Source: a virus. From it: a DNA stretch of 64,000 bases. Of the stretch, positions 22,545 to 49,077 are shown piece by piece. Each line of letters starts with the position of its first letter. Position 1 is the stretch's first letter. The DNA lies in the IMG/VR virus record IMGVR_UViG_3300011113_000640, positions 1 to 64,000 of that record; one strand, written 5' to 3'. Made by a program: the position numbers and the translations under genes. The notes under the pieces were generated by a model. That model did no database searches. It was not told the DNA's origin and saw only the letters and a list, made by a program, of their open reading frames with translations.

Positions 22545-22552
22545 TATTTAAC
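22545..22552 (-). promoter_or_regulatory. late-type octamer GTTAAATA
   Basis: About 23 bases upstream of the gene starting at 22521 and overlapping the stop of the upstream PolIII-alpha-motif gene. Confidence 0.35.
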
Positions 22553-23060
22553 GCAGGAATTCCGTGATATCTAAATTATAGTATAAACTGTCAATCCTAT
22601 GCACACCCAGCTTGTACAGCACAAAACTGGACACGCTGCTACCACGTCCAACGCCCCAGATGATGTTGTTGTCACGCATGACGTCAACTAGATACTTTAG
22701 ATATCGCAATAAATCAAACAAGTCACGTTCTTGATACAGCAGTAGTTCTGCGCCACAGCGTTGCAGTTCGGCTTCGGATTTGCACAGGTTTAAAACATGT
22801 TGCGCTATATCCAGTTGCTGGTATTCATTGGGCATGTACCATTGCTGTTGATTTGCGGCATGCCATTCTGGCACACTTAAAGTGTGGAATCTTTGTTGTT
22901 GAAATCCTGGCACAGGAGTTGCAGTGTTGGGCCAGCGGGTGAGATCCACTGACTGGTCAACGATCATGCCATCAAACACAGAAAAATCTCGGCCTTTCAT
23001 GACTAGATCAACCACGTCGTTTTGGTCAAAGATCAATTCACCAAATTTATTCTGTTTCAT
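22548..23060 (-). CDS. short PolIII-alpha (DnaE) palm-entry motif protein
   Basis: 170 residues from the ATG at 23060. The C-terminal 60 residues align with the start of the PolIII-alpha palm: LLRYLKYLVDVMRDNNIIWG then VGRGSSVSSFVLYKLGV and LDITEFLR (compare the E. coli GPGRGSGAGSLVAY region). The protein stops exactly before the catalytic PDxDxD motif, so it cannot polymerise DNA alone. The N-terminal 110 residues are unfamiliar. It overlaps the upstream gene by 14 bases. It could be a relic, a split-polymerase piece or a regulator; the polymerase core at 46 kb is a separate, complete protein. Confidence 0.65.
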   Translation of the reverse strand: MKQNKFGELIFDQNDVVDLVMKGRDFSVFDGMIVDQSVDLTRWPNTATPVPGFQQQRFHTLSVPEWHAANQQQWYMPNEYQQLDIAQHVLNLCKSEAELQRCGAELLLYQERDLFDLLRYLKYLVDVMRDNNIIWGVGRGSSVSSFVLYKLGVHRIDSLYYNLDITEFLR

Positions 23061-23655
23061 TGGGTTGTTTGAAATTGGCAAATACAACTACGTTTCCTAC
23101 ATCGGTTTCACTGGGAGTGTCAGTCCAGGCCATGTCAAGATCACGCCAGGCTGTGTTCTGTGCCAGGCTCACAATCTTGTCAGACTCTTCGGACACAATA
23201 TCACTGTGTACCAGGTCGGACGTGGACCACCAAGCAGGCTGTTCAAATCCCATGCTGTCTTCGAAATCACTGTGCAGGTAGGTTATGTTTTCTCCTAGAG
23301 CACTGGCCAGTTCAGTTTCCACTATGTTCATGCGCCCTTCTGTGATGGCATTGAGTTTAAAGTATAGCATGATACCTATGATTTGATCAACTGGTTCGCT
23401 GGGCATTGTGGTCACATTGACACCTGCTGTGGCCAATTTTCTGCAAACTTCTAAATGCTGATGATTCACAAACACAGTGCTGTCTAACTGCGTGTAGATA
23501 AAATATTTGATGCGCTCAAATGCTGTGTTTTGGTCCTCGGCATTTTTGGTTGTGGTGGTCATCCACAGCCTGACACTGTAGTTGTTCATGCGCAACTGGT
23601 CATTGTAATAGATGCCAGCGGTGAAATGCATGTCGTGTTTGAGTCTCACGTTCAT
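23047..23655 (-). CDS. conserved phage protein, unknown
   Basis: 202 residues (MNVRLKHDMHFTAGIYYND...). Alpha/beta composition with acidic C-terminal half. Overlaps by 14 bases the downstream PolIII-alpha-motif gene and by 4 (ATGA) the upstream small gene. No motif recognised. Confidence 0.6.
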   Translation of the reverse strand: MNVRLKHDMHFTAGIYYNDQLRMNNYSVRLWMTTTTKNAEDQNTAFERIKYFIYTQLDSTVFVNHQHLEVCRKLATAGVNVTTMPSEPVDQIIGIMLYFKLNAITEGRMNIVETELASALGENITYLHSDFEDSMGFEQPAWWSTSDLVHSDIVSEESDKIVSLAQNTAWRDLDMAWTDTPSETDVGNVVVFANFKQPNETE

Positions 23656-45446: not shown

Positions 45447-45884
45447 TTACTGATCGGCCTTGTGAGCTGCCAAAGTCTTGGTGAACTTGTTGGCGTGTGA
45501 GCGTTCTGCCTTGGCCAGGGTCTCAAACCAGTCAGCGATTTCGTCAAAGCCTTCGTCACGTGCTTCCTTGGCCATGCCAGGATACATGTCACTGTATTCA
45601 TGGGTCTCGCCATGGATAGCAGCTTCAAGAGCTTCTGCAACGGTCTTGGCGCTCATGCCTGTACCTGGCTCGCCAGCACCACCAGTGATCAAATACTCCA
45701 TGTGACCATGGGCATGACCTGTTTCACCTTCAGCAGTTGAGCGGAATACACTTGCTACATCTGGTGCACCTGCTACGTCGGCCATGTTTGCGAAATACAA
45801 ATAACGACGATTTGCCTGGCTCTCGCCCGAAAATGCCGCTTTCAAGTTTTCTTCTGTGCGTGTTCCTTTTACGCTTTTTGCCAT
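45447..45884 (-). CDS. rubrerythrin (diiron domain only)
   Basis: 145 residues. Four-helix ferritin-like diiron domain: [19 protein letters not shown] (Glu ligand), [15 protein letters not shown] (E-x-x-H), [15 protein letters not shown], and [12 protein letters not shown] (second E-x-x-H). The rubredoxin domain of classical rubrerythrins is absent, as in many proteobacterial homologues. Acts as a peroxidase in the cytoplasm, complementing the superoxide dismutase at 33.2 kb. Own promoter at 45924. Unusual in a phage. Confidence 0.9.
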
Positions 45885-46050: not shown

Positions 46051-47724
46051 ATGAACAGCAGATACGACGAACTAGAAATCCTAATCTCAAAATTTACACG
46101 ACCACTCCCCGATCTTCCAGCATACGCCCAGCGTCTTGAAGAAGAATTAGAAATCATAGCCAATCTTAACTTCGCAAAACATTTTTTGCGTGTGAGAGAA
46201 ATCCTGGATCTCACCCGCGACATACCACACATCACCCGAGGATCAGCCGGAAGCAGTCTGCTATGCTGGCTCATGGGCATTTCAGATGTGGATCCCATAG
46301 CTGAACGCATACCCTTGTCAAGGTTCATGAATCCCAAGCGAGATGACCTTCCCGACATTGATCTAGACTTTCCACACTGGCAACAGGAAACTGTGATGAA
46401 CAGAATATTCCGGCGGTGGCCTGGGCAGAGTGCCAGAGTATCAAACTATGTGATGTATAAAGAAAAATCAGCCCGGCGTGAAGCTGCCAAACGCATGGGG
46501 GCCAAAGGCAAATTAAAACGTAATTTTAAATTTGAAGAAGTAGTTCCGGACTATGTGGAAGATGCTGAACGACTCACACAAAAACTCCTGGGCAAGAAAC
46601 GTTGCATATCCAAACACTGTGGTGGCATCTTGATCTTTGACCGTGCAGTGCCTAAAAGTTTAATCAATGGCACCAACCAAATACTCTTGGACAAGTATGA
46701 GATAGAAGATCTCGAACATTTTAAAATAGACATCCTAGCCAATCGCGGACTCAGCCAGCTGTGGGAAATAGAGGAGCGAGACCTGCTGGACTATCCTGAA
46801 TACGATGAGGCTACAGCAGAACTTTTGTGTCGCGGCGATGTGTTGGGTGTAACACAAGCAGAAAGCCCAGCCATGAAAAGACTAGTAAAAGCCATCAAGC
46901 CTAAAAGTCGTAGTGACTGTGTGCTGGCCACGGCACTCATACGTCCTGTGGCTACCATGGGTCGCAGACGTGCTAGTGCTTTCCAAGACTGGTCAACGGA
47001 TCAGCTACAGGATACCATAGTGTTTGAGGATGATGCCATAGAGCTGATCTCGGAAATCCTGGGTTGTGATCAATACACCGCGGACATGTGGCGCAGAGCC
47101 TTTGCCAAGAAAGATGAAGAAAAGATCTTTGAGTTTATGGTGCTTGTGGGTGACCATCCCAAGAAAGAAGAAATATTCCTAGCTCTGCGTGAACTCAGTC
47201 ACTTTGGCCTGTGTAGGGCACATGCCATAAATCTTGGTAGACTGATCTGGGCCTTGGCCTACCAAAAAGCACACAATCCTGAAGCGTTCTGGCGTGCGGC
47301 CCTGAAACACTGCCAAGGATCGTATGCTCGCTGGGTCTACTGGCAAGAAGCCAAGCTGGCCGGTGCTGTGCCTGCTATCATCGAGGGCGGCGAAGTGGCC
47401 GAACTGAGAACCAATGGTCGTTGGAGCAGTCGAAGGTTTATTCCGGCCTGCCAAGAACGTCGTGGCCCGGGCACGGTGGAGTTCTGTGGACTCGTGGCCA
47501 ACTATAGGGTGTTTAAGGCCGACAAAAAGAAATACATAACATTTGTTACACTGGGCACCGGCAATGGTCGATATTTGGATGTGATTGTGCCGCATGCGAT
47601 TTCGTTCCATGATCAACCAATCTTGTGGGGTCAGGGCAAATTGGGGTATAAAAATAATTCGGAATATGTTACAGTGTATAAACACAAGCGTCTAGACTTA
47701 AAGGACATAGAACACTATCAATGA
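46051..47724 (+). CDS. DnaE-like (PolIII-alpha) polymerase core lacking the PHP domain
   Basis: 557 residues. Aligns by eye with the palm, thumb and fingers of PolIII-alpha: RLEEELEIIANLNFAKHFLR, ITRGSAGSSLLCWLMGISDV, catalytic PDIDLDFP (Asp102, Asp104), CISKHCGGILIF, FKIDILANRGL (Asp227, third catalytic Asp), LGVTQAESPAMKRLVK, MWRRAFAKKDEEKIFEFM, and the GLCRAHAINLGRL helix. Protein begins where E. coli DnaE is at about residue 340, so the PHP proofreading/organising domain is missing, as is most of the C-terminal clamp- and tau-binding region. All three catalytic Asp remain, so activity is plausible. Ribosome binding site AAGG. Overlaps the next gene (ATGA). It may be the phage replicase or a repair polymerase. 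Confidence 0.9.
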   Translation: MNSRYDELEILISKFTRPLPDLPAYAQRLEEELEIIANLNFAKHFLRVREILDLTRDIPHITRGSAGSSLLCWLMGISDVDPIAERIPLSRFMNPKRDDLPDIDLDFPHWQQETVMNRIFRRWPGQSARVSNYVMYKEKSARREAAKRMGAKGKLKRNFKFEEVVPDYVEDAERLTQKLLGKKRCISKHCGGILIFDRAVPKSLINGTNQILLDKYEIEDLEHFKIDILANRGLSQLWEIEERDLLDYPEYDEATAELLCRGDVLGVTQAESPAMKRLVKAIKPKSRSDCVLATALIRPVATMGRRRASAFQDWSTDQLQDTIVFEDDAIELISEILGCDQYTADMWRRAFAKKDEEKIFEFMVLVGDHPKKEEIFLALRELSHFGLCRAHAINLGRLIWALAYQKAHNPEAFWRAALKHCQGSYARWVYWQEAKLAGAVPAIIEGGEVAELRTNGRWSSRRFIPACQERRGPGTVEFCGLVANYRVFKADKKKYITFVTLGTGNGRYLDVIVPHAISFHDQPILWGQGKLGYKNNSEYVTVYKHKRLDLKDIEHYQ

Positions 47725-48029
47725 AACCCACAGGAAGATTACACATTTATCCACCCACCGGTCCCAGAGGCACCGGTTACATAGTAGCAGACAAGACGGC
47801 CTTACGGGGTTTGGCACAAGCGGCGCAGACAGCAAGTGCAGGTAATTTTGGATTTGAAACTATAAAATTATACAGTGCCGACGGTCATGAATATGAGCTG
47901 GTGGTTACATCAGCTGTGGGCGAAGAAGAATGGCAGACCATGGAAAGCCATTATGCCAAGGATGTGGTGCCTACCGTTGTCACCATCCAAGACTATCAGG
48001 ATCTAAAGCAAGAGCTCAAGGTTTCTTGA
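47721..48029 (+). CDS. conserved protein downstream of the polymerase
   Basis: 102 residues (MKPTGRLHIYPPTGPRGTGY...), basic start then alpha/beta segments with LYSADGHEYELVVTSAVGEE. Its ATG overlaps the polymerase stop, so it is translationally coupled and may be an accessory factor. No motif recognised. Its last 14 bases overlap the convergent ABC-GNAT gene. Confidence 0.6.
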   Translation: MKPTGRLHIYPPTGPRGTGYIVADKTALRGLAQAAQTASAGNFGFETIKLYSADGHEYELVVTSAVGEEEWQTMESHYAKDVVPTVVTIQDYQDLKQELKVS

Positions 48030-49077
48030 CGCCGATGTATTCGTGCGAATAGCACACACGATCAGCATCTCTACGGGCGATTTCAGCATTACCACCATAG
48101 CCAGGCATGGCTCTAATGCTGCCATCCTTGAGTAGATAACTGCTTTTTCGACTTTTCCGATTGGTTGATGTTGCACGCCATAGCGGACTCTTTTCTCTAT
48201 GTTCACCAAAGCTGGGATGAGCAGTTTTTGAAAAATATCTGTAGCCGCGATCCACATACATCTGTGCTATGGCATCACTGAAAGCTGTGCCTATGCCCAG
48301 GCCCTGGAACTCGGGCAACACCACGGTCCTGTGTCCACGCCAATAACTATGTATGTCACGGTTGGTACTGTGTATGGCCGCATGGAATGCCACGGGTTTG
48401 TCACCAATCAAGCCCACATAGCAGTGGACGCTACGGCTCATTCTAGTGTCTAGATAGTGATACTTAGAAAAACTTCGCCACATTTCTGGACCTGTGCCGC
48501 GGATGGTGAGGGTAATCGGTGGTCGTCGCCCCAGTCGATGAAGTAGCCTCCGATTATCTAATACCTGTAGGTCGGTATCGTACACCCAGTCTGGATCCAA
48601 CCAGTCTATTATGTCTCTGTGGCAACTAGCAATATACAACACGCCAGGATTCTTATTGAACCATTGTCGCACACTGTAGGCCAAGCTCTTGGCTGTGTCG
48701 CGATCCACCACACTTGTAAATTCATCTATGCAAGTAATGCCTTGATCCAAGGCCATGGCCATTTCAAATCTGTGATATTCACCATTGCTGAGTGTGCCCG
48801 GAGTGCGGAACCAAGCAGGTATGCTTCGCAAGCCCGAGGCTAGGAGCAATTCTTCACCACGTTCTGGTGTAGAGAAGTTTTCAATCACAGTAGAGCACGG
48901 ACTTGTGGTCACAGCCTGATTGTGATCCAGGTTGCGTAGGATCGTGCTCTTGCCTGATCCTGACGTGCCCACGATCAGCACTAGGCCTTCTTCGGGCAGG
49001 TCAGGTATGGTCACAGGCGTTTCCACATAGTCCTTGATGTCGTATCGGGTGCGTATGGTTTCTAAGTAGTTGCTCAT
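48016..49077 (-). CDS. ABC-type ATPase fused to GNAT acetyltransferase (COG2401-like)
   Basis: 353 residues in two domains. Residues 20-190: ABC ATPase with Walker A GTSGSGKST (37-45), degenerate signature LSNGEYHRFEMAMAL, Walker B GITCIDEF, and switch His in YIASCHRDII. Residues 195-350: GNAT fold with KYHYLDTRMSRSVHCYVGLI, VVLPEFQGLGIGTAFSDAIA and a C-terminal SFGEHREKSPLWRAT. This matches the described fusion class COG2401, whose acetyltransferase half resembles the phage Mu Mom DNA-modifying enzyme. Operon with an EH-P protein, an HNH protein and a ParB-like protein, a context known for DNA-modification cassettes. Role inferred: DNA base modification or nucleic acid acetylation. Confidence 0.8.
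   Translation of the reverse strand: MSNYLETIRTRYDIKDYVETPVTIPDLPEEGLVLIVGTSGSGKSTILRNLDHNQAVTTSPCSTVIENFSTPERGEELLLASGLRSIPAWFRTPGTLSNGEYHRFEMAMALDQGITCIDEFTSVVDRDTAKSLAYSVRQWFNKNPGVLYIASCHRDIIDWLDPDWVYDTDLQVLDNRRLLHRLGRRPPITLTIRGTGPEMWRSFSKYHYLDTRMSRSVHCYVGLIGDKPVAFHAAIHSTNRDIHSYWRGHRTVVLPEFQGLGIGTAFSDAIAQMYVDRGYRYFSKTAHPSFGEHREKSPLWRATSTNRKSRKSSYLLKDGSIRAMPGYGGNAEIARRDADRVCYSHEYIGVKKP

Follow-up and report, generated by a model that had tools for sequence, protein, structure and literature searches.

The window analysed here, the first 64,000 nucleotides of virus record IMGVR_UViG_3300011113_000640, contains an open reading frame that, judged from its sequence, encodes an intact family C (DnaE-type) polymerase core in 557 residues, for which catalysis is predicted. 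The source is a giant T4-like phage with a normal T4-type replicase, to which this single-chain DnaE-type polymerase is added. We tentatively regard the protein as a phage-specific, PHP-less family C polymerase that would act as an accessory beside gp43, most likely in repair or gap-filling synthesis. Beyond the preliminary description of the gene, we report a coupled partner gene, a second family C polymerase in split form, and a link to endonuclease III in the relatives. The features are collected in Table 1.

Table 1. Features of the polymerase cassette and of the split enzyme (window positions unless stated otherwise)
Feature	Position	Strand	Remarks
PHP-less single-chain family C DNA polymerase (P0001)	46051..47724	+	557 aa, no internal stop
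Palm and reduced thumb (PF07733)	46117..46740	+	residues 23-230
Catalytic D102 and D104 (PDIDLDF; E. coli D401/D403)	46354..46362	+	conserved without exception in 47 aligned members
Catalytic D227 (FKID; E. coli D555)	46729..46731	+	from alignment
Fingers (PF17657)	46777..47130	+	residues 243-360, Pfam
C-terminal OB-like beta barrel (predicted)	47452..47694	+	residues ~468-548; AlphaFold model, fold search, HMM
Small partner protein d102	47721..48029	+	102 aa; 4-nt overlap of its start with the polymerase stop
Split minimal Pol III alpha, N unit (phrog_11127)	22548..23087	-	179 aa, TTG start as called
Split minimal Pol III alpha, C unit	125016-125585 of record (outside window)	-	DIDID and FKID motifs

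The catalytic core

Pfam recognises DNA_pol3_alpha (E 3e-37) and DNA_pol3_finger (E 1.4e-14) in the open reading frame, and phmmer comparison with solved DnaE structures gives E-values down to 2e-24. The preliminary description had proposed that all three catalytic aspartates and the palm, thumb and finger motifs are contained in the 557 residues. The alignment bears this out, as D102, D104 and D227 fall on the three E. coli DnaE aspartates, with the qualification that the thumb, between the catalytic motifs, falls some 30 residues short of that of E. coli DnaE. The E. coli residues R362-G-S, R390, K510, H511, K553, R709/R710 and H760 are conserved, and K758 is replaced by arginine; most of the palm and finger residues compared are thus preserved.

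The AlphaFold model of the protein, the structural check suggested earlier, has a mean pLDDT of 78.7, with low confidence at residues 298-325. A fold search with it gave solved family C polymerases as the best matches (E down to 8e-20), and the predicted model has the Pol-beta-like fold of solved DnaE and PolC, with a global TM of only 0.4-0.6. Motifs, family conservation and fold agree, on a sequence and model basis, with the minimal family C polymerase that had been suggested.

Missing domains and the predicted C-terminal barrel

The predicted protein lacks the PHP domain, the (HhH)2/beta-binding region and the CTD, and searches of the open reading frame against Pfam gave no match to PHP, HHH_6 or the C-terminal domain. 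HHH_6 is matched by E. coli DnaE and by most phage DnaEs, but not by this polymerase. The open frame measures only 585 codons from stop to stop, so that no in-frame PHP is concealed upstream, and a domain search that was positive in all control genomes found no PHP domain across the whole 320,541-base record. The short frame and the PHP-free record together indicate that the polymerase is truly without PHP, in line with the preliminary description. The PHP-free record also disposes of the idea that another gene there supplies the domain. In Pol III alpha, PHP binds epsilon and the CTD binds tau.

The same description held that most of the C-terminal region is lost as well. This stands for the (HhH)2/beta-binding region and the CTD, but is slightly too strong, since an OB-like barrel appears to be retained. 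The AlphaFold model folds residues ~468-548 into a beta barrel, OB/SSB-type proteins are among its weaker fold matches (with weak E-values), and the family HMM aligns the stretch weakly to the OB region of E. coli DnaE, with no Pfam OB match. The C-terminus, which ends just past the barrel, is variable among the members, and inspection by eye revealed no conserved clamp-binding peptide in it. With the (HhH)2/clamp-binding region absent as well, the proposal that the enzyme works with the phage clamp loader finds no support.

Other replication genes of the record

The record contains a complete gp43-type family B polymerase of 885 aa (310759-313416, minus strand), with exonuclease and polymerase domains and a phrog_262 match over its entire length, and a DnaB-type helicase and a primase at 121-123 kb. 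A gp45-like ORF, so named from its position and from a similar ORF in relatives (its PHROG has no function), adjoins gp43 at 309025-309747 of the record. The family C enzyme is thus not a replacement for gp43, as had been implied; with a complete replicase, helicase and primase in the same record, an accessory role is to be expected.

The phage also encodes the split minimal Pol III alpha that is known from group 2.2 jumbo phages (phrog_11127 plus phrog_11778; Iyer et al. 2021, PMC7824862). Two relatives, of 337 kb and 150 kb, have the single-chain enzyme together with PolB and the split C unit, the other relatives' records tested for these being shorter fragments. The split N unit of the window is followed by a hypothetical gene and a GroES co-chaperonin-like gene, an order that is also annotated in PA5oct and Phosso. 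In PA5oct, the split N unit has an annotated 'Endonuclease III-like protein' (L275:738-1073) a few genes away, which echoes the glycosylase link described below.

A conserved phage family

Scanning IMG/VR with the polymerase protein gave 99 confirmed loci (80 kept), and with the polymerase alignment at least 537. A sister subfamily, ~60% identical, comprises 293 loci. The family is thus present in hundreds of lake and ocean virus contigs (more than 500), where the habitats, and with them the labels freshwater for the first subfamily and marine for the sister, are deduced from sample numbers. It is important to point out that many loci are near-identical, or are the same contig fetched twice, so that the locus counts do not represent independent events.

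The members examined are ~555 aa long, and the catalytic and nucleotide-binding motifs are invariant in the 47-member alignment. Compared with locus L005, the only pair that is not saturated, dN/dS is 0.06 at dS 0.94, which argues for strong purifying selection on the core. The uniform length, the motifs in the relatives and this ratio exclude a gene remnant, truncation or decay. The invariant catalytic residues also bear on a non-polymerase use of the fold, for instance as a decoy that would interfere with the host Pol III holoenzyme. A host-type core without the epsilon-binding PHP and the tau-binding CTD would suit such a function, but a decoy has no need of these residues, and we consider the idea very improbable.

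Among the best matches in 50,697 phage records, the single-chain PHP-less form occurs only in the uncultured LR756508; no member of the family turned up in cultured phages. A recent bacterial origin was also considered, and one scan of a genome collection returned only ordinary bacterial DnaE, 24-29% identical. In a tree of polymerase cores, the single-chain enzymes form one clade (100/100) and the split enzymes another (100/100). For an origin by fusion of the split pair, or as its parent, the tree offers two separate clades with very long branches, which were flagged, and it does not fix their deep join.

Comparison with known polymerases

A PHP-less phage family C core is already known, in split form. 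Like the window polymerase, the split enzyme is a phage-specific core that T4-like jumbo phages carry in addition to a family B replicase. It differs in being made of two short proteins (~180 and 190 aa) from distant genes, broken just before the catalytic DxD, with hardly any thumb and no OB seen, whereas the window polymerase is a single chain in a separate clade; the window phage has genes for both.

Bacterial DnaE (DnaE1/2/3) shares the order of palm, thumb and fingers, followed in the window polymerase by the putative OB, as well as the three catalytic aspartates and the fold. In the bacterial family C survey (PMC3919608), however, the PHP-Pol3-(HhH)2 core is nearly universal, DnaE2 included, and a CTD is often present; the window polymerase has none of the three and is half as long. 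This comparison weighs on a role in mutagenic lesion bypass, as for DnaE2/ImuC. The absent PHP/exonuclease domain, the reduced thumb and the position as accessory to a full replicase would fit such a role, but DnaE2 has a (degenerate) PHP and (HhH)2, and none of the recurrent neighbours was recognised as an ImuA/ImuB or Y-family partner. We therefore judge lesion bypass improbable.

Family C polymerases of full length are also found in phages. The eight examined (PB1, SSU5, Troll4, Glittering, Targaryen, VA-RY-3, RCIP0319 and RHph_Y2_11) are 931-1172 aa long, all have a PHP match (that of PB1 below the curated cut-off), and they fall outside the single-chain clade in the tree. The DnaE of Rhizobium phage RHph_Y2_11 (L107:2957-6361) has a C-terminal uracil-DNA glycosylase domain, which is also found in DnaEX forms (PMC3919608).

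The closest counterpart in architecture is a 574-aa ORF of the LR756508 megaphage (L106), which is 36% identical over 96%, belongs to the same clade, and comes from a record that also has PolB matches. It differs in that neither a d102 relative nor endonuclease III was recognised beside it and a separate split C unit was not detected. A search for closer relatives of this form gave nothing. In the literature searched, of which coverage was partial, we found no account of a phage DnaE that is a single chain and lacks PHP, and the OB-like barrel, the partner gene and the endonuclease III association of this family are likewise unreported there.

Gene neighbourhoods and proposed function

In the freshwater clade, which includes the window phage, the polymerase gene lies outside the primase-helicase block and travels with d102 among unrelated neighbours, d102 being the only constant one. 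Of the 81 loci in the first set, 77 have a gene of ~102 aa, which in most cases overlaps the polymerase stop; the exceptions are LR756508 and three loci with little downstream sequence (0.1-0.8 kb). The protein has no match in Pfam or PHROG, and its model, though confident, has no PDB fold match at E < 0.001. At two loci, polymerase and d102 are separated by a BPL_N/glutamine-amidotransferase-like gene (L015:7662-8306 and L068:7665-8312). The window cassette is flanked by two genes on the minus strand: a convergent phrog_11143 gene (48016-49077), whose product is ATPase-like at the N-terminus and acetyltransferase-like at the C-terminus, and a divergent gene, rubrerythrin-like by eye (45447-45884), a similar one being found near the polymerase in a few relatives. 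Matches in a promoter scan were no more than expected by chance.

The usual order in the marine clade is primase, helicase, endonuclease III, polymerase. ORFs of a gp41-type helicase family are present in 76 marine loci, and endonuclease III is found upstream of the polymerase in 58 of 75 (58-61 by two counting methods), usually at a distance of 20-75 bp. Some 15 marine loci with ample upstream sequence have no endonuclease III, and in several of these the helicase is directly upstream.

This marine primase-helicase setting makes primer extension at the fork the strongest rival to a repair function. The enzyme would then be a second fork polymerase that extends the RNA primers of the primase, or some of the lagging strand, until gp43 takes over, much as B. 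subtilis DnaE extends primers before hand-off to PolC. Also consistent with this are the loci with the helicase directly upstream and the absence of an internal exonuclease, as in DnaE3 with its inactive PHP. However, the freshwater gene, that of the window phage included, stands apart from the primase-helicase block and moves with d102, and no clamp-binding region was recognised. On balance, a fork role seems unlikely.

For repair or gap filling, which we rank first, the main argument is that the adjacency to endonuclease III recurs in different gene contexts. At three freshwater loci (L008, L036 and L072), polymerase and d102 have an endonuclease III-like gene between them. The catalytic K/D pair and the Fe-S cysteines are largely conserved in the endonuclease III-like genes of both settings, marine and freshwater, and no second copy was found in the loci concerned. 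The two freshwater lineages (L008; L036 and L072) are 48% identical to each other, and one of them is 66% identical to the marine form, so that at least two separate associations with the polymerase are likely. Being often beside a DNA-repair gene or a phage helicase gene, the polymerase is probably a helper for repair or gap filling and not the main copier. The uracil-DNA glycosylase domains of the RHph_Y2_11 DnaE and of the DnaEX forms provide a precedent for this.

Against the repair reading counts the absence of endonuclease III from most freshwater loci, from the ~15 marine loci and from the window record. In 133 of 144 freshwater loci, d102 is present and endonuclease III absent within the fetched stretch, and the 320-kb record has no clear endonuclease III. 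The record does contain, outside the window, a 142-aa MBD4-like HhH-GPD protein (300322-300747, minus strand; L100:322-747), with the MBD4 mismatch glycosylase as its nearest PDB match (E 1e-11).

In the mechanism that we favour, the polymerase would extend 3' ends across short gaps, without proofreading of its own and presumably with limited processivity. Most likely this would be repair synthesis after removal of base damage: the glycosylase/AP lyase endonuclease III would cut, the polymerase would fill and a ligase would seal. The OB barrel may hold the single-stranded template, and for d102, in the freshwater clade, a role as subunit or regulator is conceivable. One may go further and speculate, with less confidence, that the one-piece PHP-less clade is dedicated to base-excision-type repair through an endonuclease III-polymerase operon, alongside the family B replicase and the split family C polymerase. 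One phage would then have three replicative-type polymerases of two unrelated folds.

Significance

A core that is under strong selection without PHP or (HhH)2, and that occurs in hundreds of environmental contigs, amounts to a natural minimal Pol III alpha, with which one can ask what PHP and (HhH)2 do. Within the literature searched, the single-chain form with its OB-like barrel, its partner gene and its link to endonuclease III is what is added to the known split form. The finding also bears on why T4-like phages that have gp43 keep family C enzymes, a question that was raised for the split form (Iyer et al. 2021, PMC7824862).
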